A program made the position numbers and the translations under genes. DNA of 64,000 nucleotides from Variovorax terrae. GTDB taxonomy: Bacteria > Pseudomonadota > Gammaproteobacteria > Burkholderiales > Burkholderiaceae_C. The notes beneath the pieces were generated by a model. That model was given only the letters and a program-made list of their open reading frames with translations, made no database searches and was not told the origin of the DNA. Positions 1-35,793 of the stretch are shown in pieces. The DNA lies in contig NZ_JALGBI010000002.1 of the NCBI RefSeq assembly GCF_022809125.1, positions 69,590-133,589 of the forward strand. The letters are read 5' to 3'. Each line of letters begins with the position of its first letter. Positions within the stretch are counted from its first letter, which is position 1.

Positions 1-97
1 GGGCGGGGAGCACGGCCTGGAGCGCAGCAACGACCTGGGCCTGGCGCTCGGCCTGCTTGAGGCGCTGCTGTTCGTCGGAAACAGTGGGTGCGTTCAT
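1..97 (-). CDS. N-terminus of a gene cut by the window edge, possibly a GlcD-like FAD-linked oxidase
   Basis: An ATG at 97 reads leftwards off the window and gives about 32 residues beginning MNAPTVSDEQQRLKQAERQ and continuing QVVAALQAVLP. This polar start followed by an ALxAVLP-like segment is typical of glycolate-oxidase-type FAD-linked oxidases in Comamonadaceae, where it precedes a conserved LLW-x-x-EDTTPYECDG motif that would lie outside the window. The family call is an inference from this short stretch and the rest cannot be checked. It is transcribed divergently from the riboswitch-controlled PLP enzyme. Confidence 0.45.
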   Translation of the reverse strand, partial: MNAPTVSDEQQRLKQAERQAQVVAALQAVLPA

Positions 98-248
98 AGG
101 CCCTTACTTTAGGGCAGCCGGGGCGCTGGTGCCATGAAGGATCATGCACAGGTTTGTGAAAGAAATTCGGGAATGCGTCCATCCGGCTCTGCCGGTGCAC
201 TGCATGGCCCCTGTGTCAGGGAGGCGGCTATAGGCCGCATCGGGGGCG

Positions 249-311
249 TAAAATGGCTTGGCGCCGATTTGAGCTACAGCTTGCGGGCGCCTTATAAATG
301 CCGCTAAAGCG
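249..311 (+). promoter_or_regulatory. SAM-II (SAM-alpha) type riboswitch aptamer
   Basis: A TAAAAT -10-like box (249-254) lies just before a compact pseudoknot. P1 is GGCGC (260-264) paired with GCGCC (287-291). GCGG (283-286) can pair with CCGC (301-304), and the 3' strand TTATAAATGCCGCTAAAG (292-309) matches the SAM-II signature GATAAATG-N-N-GCTAAA. SAM-II riboswitches bind S-adenosylmethionine and turn off methionine/cysteine genes; here the aptamer precedes a Cys/Met-metabolism PLP enzyme and is followed at once by a terminator. The family is best known from alphaproteobacteria. The call rests on motif and pairing, not on a covariance search. Confidence 0.82.
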
Positions 312-320
312 AACGTGACC

Positions 321-357
321 AGCCCGTTTCGTCTCTGCGGTACGGGCTTTGCTTTTT
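321..357 (+). terminator. Rho-independent terminator, expression platform of the SAM riboswitch
   Basis: AGCCCGT (321-327) pairs with ACGGGCT (342-348) around a 14-nt loop and is followed by the T-rich run TTGCTTTTT. It lies between the aptamer and the start codon at 371 of the downstream gene, on the same strand, so premature termination in the leader when SAM is bound is the simplest model. The run of T residues ends about 14 bases before the start codon. Confidence 0.75.
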
Positions 358-370
358 GGGAACGAACACC

Positions 371-1618
371 ATGACCACCCCACCCCGCCAACACGGACTC
401 ACCACCACGCTGCTGCATTCGGACCGCCGCTTCGGCGTCGAGCACGGCGCGATGCACAAGCCGGTGCACCCGTCGGTGGCCTTCGGCTACGAGGACGCGC
501 GCGACCTCGCGGCGGCGTTCCAGGGCACCAAGGCCGGCTACACCTACGGCCGCTCGGGCAGCCCGACCTCGGCCGCGCTGGAGGCCAAGATCACGGCGCT
601 GGAGCAGGGCACCGGCACGGTCTGCTTCGCCACCGGCATGGCGGCCATCGGTCACACCCTGCTGTCGCTGCTGCGCGCGGGCGACCACATGGTGGCCAGC
701 CGCTTCCTGTTCGGCAACACCACCAGCCTGTTCGGCACGCTGGCGCTGCAGGGCATCGCCATCGACGAAGCGGACGTGACCGACGTGGCGAACGTGGAGG
801 CGGCGCTGCGGCCCACTACGCGCGTGGTGTTCCTGGAGACCGTGGCGAATCCGCGCACCCAGGTGGCGGACCTGGCGCGCATCGGCGCGCTGTGCGCCGA
901 GCGCGGCATCCTCTACATCGTGGACAACACCATGACCTCGCCCGTGCTGTTCAACCCGAAGCAGGTTGGCGCGGGGTTGGTGATGAACTCGCTGACCAAG
1001 TACATCGGTGGCCACGGCAACGCCCTGGGCGGCGCGATCACCGACACCGGCCTGTTCGACTGGACGCGCTTTCCCCACATCCACGAGGCCTACCGCAGCG
1101 CCAAGCCCGCGATGTGGGGCCTCACGCAGATCCGCAAGAAGGGCCTGCGCGACATGGGCGGCACGATGGCGCCAGAGTCGGCCCACCACATCGCGGTGGG
1201 CGCCGAAACCCTGGCGCTGCGCATGGAGCGCATCTGCGCCAACGCGCTGCGCCTGGCGGGCTGGCTCGAGCAGCAGCCGCAGGTCGCGCATGTGGACTAT
1301 CCGGGCCTCGCTTCGCATCCGCAACATGCGCGGGCCGCGCAGCTATTTGGTGGTCGCTACGGCGGCCTGCTGGCGTTCGAGCTGGCCGAGGGCATCGACT
1401 GCTTCGACTTCCTCAACCGGCTGCAGCTGGTGGTCTCTTCCACCCATCTGGGCGACAACCGCACGCTGGGCATCGCGGTGGCGCACACCATCTACTTCGA
1501 GATGGGCCGCGAAAAGCGCGCCGCGCAGGGCATCGCCGAATCGCTGATCCGCATCTCGGTGGGCATCGAGGACGCGGACGATCTGCTGGCGGACTTCGCG
1601 CAGGCGCTGGCCGCGTAG
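371..1618 (+). CDS. Cystathionine gamma-synthase/methionine gamma-lyase family PLP enzyme
   Basis: A 415-residue cytosolic fold-type I PLP enzyme of the Cys/Met metabolism family (MetB, MetC, MetZ, MegL). The PLP-binding lysine is K210 in SLTKYIGGHGN, the expected site, and YGRSGSPT near residue 59 is the phosphate-binding segment from the partner subunit. It also has the ETVANPRTQ and VDNTMTSP segments typical of the family. Substrate specificity (synthase, sulfhydrylase or lyase) cannot be read from the sequence. I chose the ATG at 371 over an in-frame TTG at 356, because the TTG falls in the terminator tail. A SAM-II-type leader points to a role in methionine or homocysteine supply. It converges on a LysR gene 7 bp away. 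Confidence 0.88.
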   Translation: MTTPPRQHGLTTTLLHSDRRFGVEHGAMHKPVHPSVAFGYEDARDLAAAFQGTKAGYTYGRSGSPTSAALEAKITALEQGTGTVCFATGMAAIGHTLLSLLRAGDHMVASRFLFGNTTSLFGTLALQGIAIDEADVTDVANVEAALRPTTRVVFLETVANPRTQVADLARIGALCAERGILYIVDNTMTSPVLFNPKQVGAGLVMNSLTKYIGGHGNALGGAITDTGLFDWTRFPHIHEAYRSAKPAMWGLTQIRKKGLRDMGGTMAPESAHHIAVGAETLALRMERICANALRLAGWLEQQPQVAHVDYPGLASHPQHARAAQLFGGRYGGLLAFELAEGIDCFDFLNRLQLVVSSTHLGDNRTLGIAVAHTIYFEMGREKRAAQGIAESLIRISVGIEDADDLLADFAQALAA

Positions 1619-33427: not shown

Positions 33428-33473
33428 AAAAGAGGAGCAACCCGGCGCTGTCCGCGTGGTTGCCGCTCCCCCT
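33428..33473 (-). terminator. Candidate terminator/expression platform between glycine riboswitch and dadA
   Basis: On the minus strand GGAGCGGCAACC can pair with GGGTTGCTCC around a short loop and is followed by TCTTTTGATAGC. It lies right after the second aptamer and before dadA. The stem has a bulge and the T run is modest, so the call is tentative; an ON-switch antitermination scheme would be typical for glycine riboswitches. Confidence 0.5.
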
Positions 33474-33478
33474 GTCCT

Positions 33479-33650
33479 TGGTACCTGAGAGATTCACCCG
33501 CCGGTTCTCCGGGGGGCTTGCTCCTTCGGTGCATCACGGTGGTGATGGCTCTCCAGACGGCTTTTCAGTGTGTGCAGTACGGAACCTGAGCGTGTATGGG
33601 AGTTTGCGCCTTCGGTGGAACGCGGCTGGCGCGTTCGCTCTCCTGCAGCT
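33479..33650 (-). promoter_or_regulatory. Tandem glycine riboswitch upstream of dadA
   Basis: Two aptamers are seen on the minus strand. Aptamer 1 (about 33583-33647) has GCAGGAGAGCG, CCACCGAAGGCGCAAAC and CGCTCAGG. Aptamer 2 (about 33479-33558) has CTGGAGAGCC, CACCGAAGGAGCAAGC and CTCTCAGGTACC. The CCGAAGGxGCAA and GGAGAG...CTCAGG pattern is the glycine riboswitch hallmark, and tandem arrangement with a short linker is usual. A TACAAT box (33655-33660) fits a -10 just upstream. Glycine binding normally turns expression on; here the target is dadA. Confidence 0.93.
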
Positions 33651-33870: not shown

Positions 33871-35793
33871 ATGACGAGCCAGAGCAGCCCCGCCGCCGCC
33901 CCCGCGCCGGGCGAGCACCCCAACCAGTTCGCGCTGCTCCGGCAACGCCGCTTCGCGCCCTTCTTCTGGACGCAGTTCTCGGGCGCGGCCAACGACAACC
34001 TGTTCAAGTTCGCCTTCACCGTGATGGTGACCTACCAGCTCAGCGTGGGCTGGCTGCCGCCGGCGATGGCGGGGCTGGTGATCGGTGCGCTGTTCATCCT
34101 GCCGTTCCTGCTGTTCTCGGCCACCAGCGGCCAGCTCACCGACAAGCACGACAAGACGGTGATGATCCGCTTCGTGAAGAACCTGGAGATCGTGATCATG
34201 GCGATCGCGGCCTGGGGCTTCTACAGCGAGAACGCGGCGGTGCTGCTGGGCTGCACCTTCCTCATGGGCCTGCACTCCACGCTGTTCGGCCCGGTCAAGT
34301 TCGCCTATCTGCCGCAGGTGCTCAATGAGCGCGAACTGACCGGCGGCAACGGCATGGTGGAGATGGGCACCTTCGTCGCGATCCTGCTGGGCAACGTCGT
34401 GGGCGGGCTGATCATGGCGGTGCCCGAGGTCGGCCACCGCGACGTGGCCATCGCCTGCGTGCTGCTGGCGCTGGCGGGGCGCGCGGTGGCGCAGTTCATC
34501 CCGAGCGCGCCGGCCACCGACCCGGGCCTGAAGATCAACTGGAACCCGGTCAGCGAGACCTGGCGCAACCTGCGGCTGGCGCACGACAACATCGTGGTCT
34601 TCCGATCGCTGCTGGGCATCAGCTGGATGTGGTTCTTCGGCGCGGTGTTCCTGAGCCAGTTCCCGAGCTTCGCCAAGGAGGTGCTGCACGGCAACGAGCA
34701 GGTGGCCTCGCTGCTGCTGGTGGTGTTCTCCATCGGCATCGGCACCGGCTCGCTCCTGTGCGAGGTGCTGAGCCGCCGCCACATCGAGATCGGCCTGGTG
34801 CCGCTGGGCGCGATCGGCATGAGCGTGTTCGCGGTGGACCTGTACTTCGCCGCGCGCGGCCTGCCGCCGGCCGACAGCCTCACGTTGGGCCAGTTCGTGG
34901 CGATCGGCGCGCACTGGCGCGTGATGGCCGACCTGGCGCTGCTGAGCCTGTTCGCGGGCCTGTACAGCGTGCCGATGTACGCGCTGATCCAGATGCGCGC
35001 GCAGCCCACGCACCGCGCCCGCATCATCGCGGCCAACAACATCCTCAATGCGCTGTTCATGATCGCCAGCTCGGTGATCGCGGGCGGGCTGCTCGAGGCC
35101 GGCTTCACCATCCCGCAGATCTTCCTGCTGGTGGGCCTGGCCAATGCGGTGGTGGCCTTCTACATCTTCATGCTGGTGCCCGAGTACCTGCTGCGCTTCA
35201 TCGCCTGGGGCGCCTCGCGCTTCATCTACCGCTTCCGGGTGCGGGGCGACGAGCACATCCCGATGCAGGGCGCGGCCGTGCTGGTGTGCAACCATGTGAG
35301 CTTCGTCGATGCGGTGCTGCTGATGGCGGCCAGCCCGCGGCCGATCCGCTTCCTGATGGATCACCGCATCTTCCGTTTCCCGGTGCTGGGCTGGCTGTTC
35401 CGGCTGGCCAAGGCCATCCCGATCGCGCCGCAGAAGGAAGACCCGGCCGCCTACGAGGCCGCCTTCGAGCAGGCCGCCGAGGTGTTGCGTGAGGGCGACC
35501 TGCTGGCCATCTTTCCCGAGGGCGGCATCACGCGCGACGGGCAGATCCAGGAGTTCAAGGGCGGCATCATGAAGATCCTCGAGCGCGCGCCGGCGCCGGT
35601 GATCCCGATGGCGCTGACCAACCTCTGGGGCTCGTACTTCAGCCGCATCGAGAAGGAAGGCGCCATGGTGCGGCCGTTCCGGCGCGGCATGTTCAGCCGC
35701 GTCGGCCTCAACGTGGGCGCGGCCCTGGCGCCGGCCGAGGTCCAGCCGCAGCCGCTGCGCGAACGCGTGGCGGCCCTGCTGGCGCAGGGCTGA
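33871..35793 (+). CDS. LplT-like MFS transporter fused to a PlsC-type acyltransferase
   Basis: 640 residues. An N-terminal MFS domain of about 12 membrane segments (about 20-430; FWTQFSGAANDNLFKFAF is the LplT-type start) is fused to a 1-acyl-glycerol-3-phosphate acyltransferase domain (about 450-640). The acyltransferase motifs are NHVSFVD (474-480, H-x4-D) and FPEGGITRDG. In other bacteria this pair is often followed by an acyl-ACP synthetase domain (Aas); none is present here. It probably flips lysophospholipids inwards and reacylates them. The 205-bp stretch upstream (33666-33870) holds no other gene. Confidence 0.9.
   Translation: MTSQSSPAAAPAPGEHPNQFALLRQRRFAPFFWTQFSGAANDNLFKFAFTVMVTYQLSVGWLPPAMAGLVIGALFILPFLLFSATSGQLTDKHDKTVMIRFVKNLEIVIMAIAAWGFYSENAAVLLGCTFLMGLHSTLFGPVKFAYLPQVLNERELTGGNGMVEMGTFVAILLGNVVGGLIMAVPEVGHRDVAIACVLLALAGRAVAQFIPSAPATDPGLKINWNPVSETWRNLRLAHDNIVVFRSLLGISWMWFFGAVFLSQFPSFAKEVLHGNEQVASLLLVVFSIGIGTGSLLCEVLSRRHIEIGLVPLGAIGMSVFAVDLYFAARGLPPADSLTLGQFVAIGAHWRVMADLALLSLFAGLYSVPMYALIQMRAQPTHRARIIAANNILNALFMIASSVIAGGLLEAGFTIPQIFLLVGLANAVVAFYIFMLVPEYLLRFIAWGASRFIYRFRVRGDEHIPMQGAAVLVCNHVSFVDAVLLMAASPRPIRFLMDHRIFRFPVLGWLFRLAKAIPIAPQKEDPAAYEAAFEQAAEVLREGDLLAIFPEGGITRDGQIQEFKGGIMKILERAPAPVIPMALTNLWGSYFSRIEKEGAMVRPFRRGMFSRVGLNVGAALAPAEVQPQPLRERVAALLAQG

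Follow-up and report, generated by a model that had tools for sequence, protein, structure and literature searches.

The leader and its SAM-II-type aptamer

The window (the whole stretch of DNA analysed, 64 kb in length) very probably begins with a SAM-sensing RNA switch of known type, situated 5' of a sulfur amino acid enzyme gene. Re-reading of the sequence placed TAAAAT at 249-254, P1, P2, GCUAAA, a 7-bp stem and a T run where a preliminary description had put them, and its compact layout of ~110 nt was also borne out, with aptamer and terminator both inside 249-357. The features are as follows.

249-254, + strand: -10 box TAAAAT, read from the sequence
251-328, + strand: SAM-II (SAM_alpha) aptamer match, RF00521
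260-265, + strand: P1 5' strand GGCGCC, from sequence, folding and covariation in 118 leaders
266-271, + strand: L1 GAUUUG, triplex third strand with U10-U12 at 268-270, from sequence, with pocket residues after excerpts of PMC3764141
283-286, + strand: P2 5' strand GCGG, 286 being common to P1, from complementarity and leader counts
286-291, + strand: P1 3' strand GGCGCC, from folding and covariation
301-304, + strand: P2 3' strand CCGC, with 337-340 as predicted alternative partner, from folding
303-308, + strand: GCUAAA core, pocket residues G42, C43, U44, A45, A46 and A47, from sequence and excerpts of PMC3764141
309-317, + strand: predicted antiterminator 5' strand (pairs with 324-332), also weak distal P2 (309-311 with 277-280), from folding
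321-348, + strand: intrinsic terminator hairpin, 7-bp outer stem and inner 4-bp hairpin, -15.4 kcal/mol
348-357, + strand: T tract TTTGCTTTTT, from sequence
371-1618, + strand: Cys/Met metabolism PLP enzyme of the cystathionine gamma-synthase family (PRK05939), from NF004609, PF01053 and 3ri6

Using Rfam we identified a match to RF00521 (SAM_alpha) at 251-328, which scored 40.6 bits against a cut-off of 36, with an E-value of 1.1e-5 over the 64-kb window and 2.0e-7 over the genome. This was the top scorer among four RF00521 matches in the genome (E up to 1), and none of 14 control genomes had a match at or above the cut-off, with weak matches (E up to 1) in 10 of these. The SAM-II-type aptamer proposed in the preliminary description, for which a covariance-model search had been set as the refuting check, therefore came through with a score above threshold, and its pocket is also intact. 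Of the nucleotides given as completely conserved in SAM-II (crystal structure 2QWY) in excerpts of PMC3764141, namely U10-12, U20, U21, G22, C23, G42, C43, U44 and A45-47, all 13 are found in the window at 268-270, 281-284 and 303-308, with the mapping anchored on UUGC and GCUAAA. P1 was read from the sequence as a core of 260-264/287-291 that can be extended to 260-265/286-291, and the distal P2 is short (C277-G311, G279-C310 and C280-G309, with a bulge). The pocket numbering follows the sequence of 2QWY.

The linker from P1 to P2 (292-300) is 9 nt in length and has no P3, which bears on whether the site could be SAM-V or another SAM class. SAM-V does have the same core fold (PMC6061858); however, SAM_alpha was the only Rfam match at this site at E up to 0.5, no Shine-Dalgarno was seen in P2, and a terminator is present downstream, leaving such an assignment with next to no likelihood. 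SAM-V identity itself was rejected, with no SAM_V match at E up to 0.5, no P3, and no Shine-Dalgarno seen in P2. From its sequence we assign the element, with high confidence, to SAM-II and not to a novel class.

A promoter and terminator scanner run over window positions 1-700 found neither. This scanner demands a -35 box for a promoter call, and inspection gave no convincing -35 box upstream of TAAAAT, while the terminator was missed because loops were limited to 3-8 bases and the loop here has 14. The transcript is expected to start near 260-261, at the edge of P1. Elsewhere in the window, Rfam matches comprised a glycine riboswitch aptamer on the minus strand (33462-33566; 56.8 bits, cut-off 32) and Bcj11 (Burkholderia RNA 11; 34565-34686; 93.4 bits, cut-off 49).

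The downstream gene and recurrence of the arrangement

The preliminary description had noted a Cys/Met PLP enzyme gene downstream, and this was confirmed by matches of 371-1618 to NF004609 (688 bits, cut-off 555) and PF01053 (347 bits), with 3ri6, an O-acetylhomoserine sulfhydrylase, as the best solved chain for the product. SAM-II is therefore placed 5' of a methionine-biosynthesis-type gene (PRK05939/PF01053; predicted enzyme), whose ATG start codon at 371 is ~60 nt from the GCUAAA core.

Close relatives of this gene were present in 15 of the 120 genomes searched (source included), and in two of the 15 it is preceded by SAM-II as judged by Rfam. In a second set, judged by sequence pattern and formed of 80 named relatives kept from 179 found, core and terminator were detected in 10 leaders, with none among 1600 shuffled controls; the ten include one Pseudomonadales MAG and two from the same assembly. 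Across these two sets, which possibly overlap, 12 of 95 leaders of PRK05939-type genes (window included) have SAM-II, all 12 with a terminator-like hairpin, and this type of enzyme is a less usual SAM-II target. A switch found in only 12 of 95 leaders, in a genome with another SAM-II before metX (L031, 22.6 bits), could be a relic or stray copy whose aptamer has no function here. We consider this very improbable, as the element has the best SAM-II score of the genome, 13 intact pocket bases and an unbroken P1, and the arrangement recurs at 11 other loci (0/1600 shuffled controls in the 80-relative set).

SAM-II relatives across the family

RF00521 matched 111 of 200 family genomes at E <= 0.001, with 50 matches above the cut-off. 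From 113 rows, 111 were fetched (a second G134 match and G029 were left out), and tblastn context placed 103 of these before metX and one before metK, with one being the window and six falling elsewhere. Above the cut-off, 49 of the 50 are before metX and the remaining one is the window, and 54 of the 103 metX leaders score below it. By reading, two of the six other matches (G162 and G080) appear to fall within the coding sequence of dnaK and were treated as false positives. The relatives recovered agree with the betaproteobacterial source named in the preliminary description.

Some further elements were observed during this survey. The source genome has a second SAM-II with terminator before metX (L031:1501-1620; 22.6 bits, below cut-off), and locus L097 (G121) has a pair of nearly identical SAM-II-like elements, one on each strand and ~1.9 kb apart, neither of them before metX, which look like inverted copies. 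In addition, L031, L228, L236 and L249 each have a below-cut-off match to RF02424 (Burkholderia sRNA Bp2_287) on the strand complementary to their SAM-II leader. When the RF02424 consensus is reverse-complemented, it shows GATTTG, GCTTGC, GCTAAA and, ahead of TTTTT, a hairpin; this Rfam family was probably derived from the antisense strand of such a leader.

Covariation was assessed in 118 parsed SAM-II leaders (window included), with one of 119 unparsed, at least three mis-parsed, and G162, G080, G031 and one G121 copy left out. At the P1 pair 260-291, 100 of the 118 have a standard pairing, including A-U in 76, C-G in 9, U-G in 8, U-A in 4 and G-C in 2, and pair 265-286 is C-G in 99, U-G in 13 and U-A in 5. 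The compensatory changes in P1 that the preliminary description had proposed to look for among relatives are thus seen at both pairs, and the helix is maintained by them. In P2, pair 285-302 is standard in 74 leaders and not in 44 (G-A in 36); GCGG and CCGC are complementary in the window, and in the leader set 283-304 and 284-303 were fixed by the search pattern and 286-301 hardly varies. A chance match was ruled out by the RF00521 scores in window and genome together with leader covariation.

Terminator and predicted antiterminator

The claim that this leader has its own terminator held on folding, with a hairpin at 321-348 (-15.4 kcal/mol) formed of an outer stem 321-327/342-348 and an inner hairpin 329-332/337-340, and a T tract composed of TTT (348-350) and TTTTT (353-357), broken by GC. 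Likewise, a terminator-like hairpin is present 3' of 96 of the 113 RF00521 matches examined, at -12 kcal/mol or lower in 92 of the 96. One metK leader and one of the G121 copies are among these 96, and the matches with no hairpin (17) comprise the two dnaK false positives and 15 others. The criterion is permissive, as 54 of 92 metK leaders pass it, mostly via a stem with the Shine-Dalgarno.

A simple antiterminator formed of GCGGGC (283-288) and GCCCGU (322-327) is complementary, but at -15.8 kcal/mol compared with -20.0 for P1 (fold of 260-330) it is the weaker structure, and this model was therefore replaced by a pairing that involves 301-304 and 309-317. Nascent RNA 260-345 folds as this antiterminator (301-304 with 337-340 and 309-317 with 324-332), and RNA 260-355 folds as the terminator.

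Over the 96 leaders, the RNA following GCUAAA showed stronger pairing to the leader's own terminator arm than to arms taken from other leaders (-11.5 vs -10.2 kcal/mol, p 1e-6), for example AGGGACGCC/GGUGUCC against AGGAACGCC/GGUGUUCC, with 17 of the 96 singly beating their own shuffles at 0.05. For the window element, pairing in a short test amounted to -7.3 kcal/mol against a stronger swapped mean of -8.7, with 57% of shuffles equally good (69% in a second run), and an extended test gave -15.6 with 7.1% of shuffles equally good. Among the 12 SAM-II leaders of the PRK05939-type gene, own pairing exceeded shuffled (p 0.007), with p 0.37 for own against swapped. These data support an antiterminator design across SAM-II leaders, and for the window member make it only plausible.

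This statistical weakness of the window antiterminator leaves some weight for a real aptamer whose control is mainly translational, or acts via an sRNA produced by constitutive termination, with a terminator that SAM does not switch. There is precedent in Sinorhizobium meliloti metA, where the terminator following SAM-II is not predicted to respond to SAM binding (excerpts of PMC9373788). We regard this as unlikely here, given that ~60 nt separate the start codon (371) from the core, that inspection of P2 gave no good Shine-Dalgarno, and that antiterminator pairing is on average sequence-specific over 96 relatives.

The window RNA is, in our assessment, highly likely to be a SAM-II transcriptional OFF switch. 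Sequence and comparison show the aptamer, P1, the pocket bases, the terminator hairpin and the gene context, and we infer the start site, SAM binding, the switching between folds and the size of effect. Transcription would begin at the P1 edge, and at high SAM P1 and the P2 pseudoknot would close round the ligand (U268-U270, U281-C284 and G303-A308), with P2 retaining 301-304 and part of 309-313, so that the terminator 321-348 forms and RNA synthesis halts near 353-357, giving a product of ~95 nt. At low SAM, the free 301-304 and 309-317 would pair with 337-340 and 324-332, which are inside the loop and 5' arm of the terminator, leading to read-through. The label of a full SAM-off switch used in the preliminary description would suit such a mechanism, for which the antiterminator statistics of the window element itself are weak.

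A candidate SAM-II-related RNA before metK

In the same genome, the metK leader (L032, minus strand 1501-1583; G000 contig C2:395955-396037) gave a sub-threshold RF00521 score of 22.2 bits. A metK-leader probe detected similar sequences in 99 of 200 family genomes, with 0 of 200 for the reversed control, and all 92 extracted loci (L129, L131-L220 and L032) are directly before metK. These 92 are 91 extracted from the 99 probe genomes, with eight left out, plus L129 (G330) from an order-wide pattern search; probe and extraction pattern both contained GCTAAAGCGTTCG, so conservation at that stretch is biased.

The layout starts in most with a TAAAAT-like box and a P1 of GUCGC/GCGAC or AUCGC/GCGAU, followed by GAGUUA (GGGUUA in one), G(A/G)(A/G)C, ACUUGC(A/G), a linker and GCUAAAGCGUUCGC, then CUCC a short distance on (66 of 92), GGCAACGC or GGCAGCGC (74 of 92), GGAG and the start codon. 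The linker from P1 to the P2 3' strand is 9-14 nt in 70 of 92 and 31-92 nt in the other 22 (e.g. L138, L143 and L214). All 92 carry G at the pocket position U10; at least one metK leader of another family (L244) retains U there. Excerpts of PMC3764141 name the triples G8 with C23-G42, U11 with U21-A45 and U12 with U20-A46, and by this register position 10 would share a layer with U44 and the adenine of SAM.

Alignment A1 comprised 66 metK sequences, with the 22 long-linker sequences and four duplicates left out. Both helices covary. P1 pair 2-36 is G-C in 54, A-U in 11 and U-A in one, and in P2 pair 29-53 is A-U in 52, G-U in 7 and G-C in 5 (two gaps) and pair 30-52 is G-C in 65 and A-U in one. 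Cells changed on both sides numbered 24, a value reached by 0 of 500 shuffles, and pairs with a double change numbered four, reached by 7 of 500, both counts being uncorrected for relatedness. Further pair types were not above shuffles in A1 (241/500), and 38 of the 66 sequences leave the outermost P1 pair unformed. Outside this family, several families have a distal P2 of GAC/GUC, compared with GA(A/G)C/GUUC here.

A model built on A1 ranked the window SAM-II second among its matches in the genome (27.6 bits, E 0.001) and did not find the metX SAM-II of that genome at E up to 10, which indicates two classes that are related yet distinct. Across the order, it matched 101 of 200 genomes at E <= 0.01, with metK-type RNAs mixed with ordinary SAM-II. 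When 14 metK leaders (three of this family and 11 of others) were compared with Rfam, no SAM_alpha match was detected at E up to 0.5. Judged by sequence comparison, the metK class very likely represents a genuine, conserved RNA with a relationship to SAM-II. Separately, seven loci (L228, L229, L231, L233, L234, L236 and L237) have tandem pairs, with a SAM-II core followed by a metK-like core 97-201 nt on (start to start), and those in L228, L229, L231 and L233 precede a short protein beginning MYDC.

The metK RNAs have several pairing alternatives. Pairing between the GGAG region and the segment past the tail reaches -9.4, compared with -5.1 for shuffled (significant at 0.05 in 65 of 92 leaders taken singly) and -8.6 for swapped (p 0.002), and the tail GCGUUCGCC pairs with the downstream GGCAACGC at -11.3, compared with -7.8 for shuffled (38 of 92 singly at 0.05). 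The tail GCGUUCGCC is also complementary to the metK start AUGGCGAACG. Codon 2 of metK, where Ala, is GCG in 67 of 73, compared with 28% in the rest of metK (script-called starts, uncorrected for relatedness), and in a second count GCG was used in 61 of 64 metK and 9 of 26 other genes with Ala at codon 2.

Closure of the metK Shine-Dalgarno by SAM was unsupported by folding, as its mean accessibility was 0.07 free and 0.11 with the P2 strands blocked, with blocking raising accessibility in 20 and lowering it in five of 92 leaders. The idea that metK leaders have no terminator was also dropped, since a hairpin before a T-rich stretch is present in 54 of 92, mostly a CUCC/GGAG stem followed by TTTATT.

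Taken jointly, we think it probable that metX, the Cys/Met gene and metK form a three-member SAM-II-type set, in which metK has an undescribed related class that controls SAM synthetase. This class would be widespread in the family and present in other families of the order, with a SAM-II core in which U10 is changed to G and a long linker perhaps at the place of the SAM-V P3. Its conserved tail GCGUUCGCC may pair with P2, the downstream GGCAACGC or the metK start AUGGCGAACG, and the upstream CUCC with the Shine-Dalgarno GGAG, so that control might act at translation start, or the same U-flanked stem might serve as a terminator. The ligand would be SAM or a related one admitted by U10G. A conserved pseudoknot before metK with one pocket base exchanged offers a concrete candidate in which to examine SAM synthetase feedback and ligand specificity.

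Comparison with known systems

The window element resembles RF00521 SAM-II (Corbino 2005; 2QWY) in score, P1, P2 complementarity, pocket, -10 box at P1, terminator and sulfur amino acid gene, and differs from the usual members in its short distal P2 and its PRK05939-type target in place of metX. The preliminary description had presented a terminator-bearing SAM-II in a betaproteobacterium as a rarity, which does not stand, as these are already in print (PMC2258182, as excerpted), and the first SAM-II paper described Bordetella bronchiseptica, many putative terminators and promoters just 5' of P1 (excerpts of PMC1273637). On its own, the window element extends an established riboswitch class to a target gene that is less usual for it.

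The nearest functional parallel is S. meliloti metZ, where terminated RNA of ~100 nt increases under high SAM and, as proposed here, the terminator is predicted to form on SAM binding (Scheuer 2022, PMC9373788, in part). Unlike the window element, which is known from sequence, that case is from an alphaproteobacterium, concerns another enzyme and was measured in cells. SAM-V has the core fold in common with SAM-II (PMC6061858, in part). The window element has the same pseudoknot core and SAM pocket but, unlike it, SAM-V has a P3 hairpin and acts on translation; 22 of 92 metK RNAs resemble SAM-V in having a long linker where P3 would be. We take SAM-V to be RF01826.

In the excerpted text of Leyn 2014 (PMC4239095), SAM_alpha is reported in Rhizobiales and Rhodobacterales only, and a 'metXZ' element of beta-proteobacteria is called novel. 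By that description, metXZ is like the window SAM-II in its conserved-region pseudoknot, consistent terminator and location in metX/metZ leaders, and because 103 metX leaders match RF00521 at E <= 0.001 it is most likely SAM-II, as judged by text description and position. This identity would reconcile Leyn 2014, with no SAM_alpha there, and Barrick and Breaker 2007, with SAM-II and terminators. For a SAM-II-type metK leader in beta-proteobacteria, no description was found among the open-access papers searched, and the class is apparently undescribed. The excerpts of Leyn 2014 (PMC4239095) further state that beta-proteobacterial metK was under no known methionine regulator and that attempts to find one had failed, and the metK RNA, which outweighs the window element as a follow-up, fits exactly this place.
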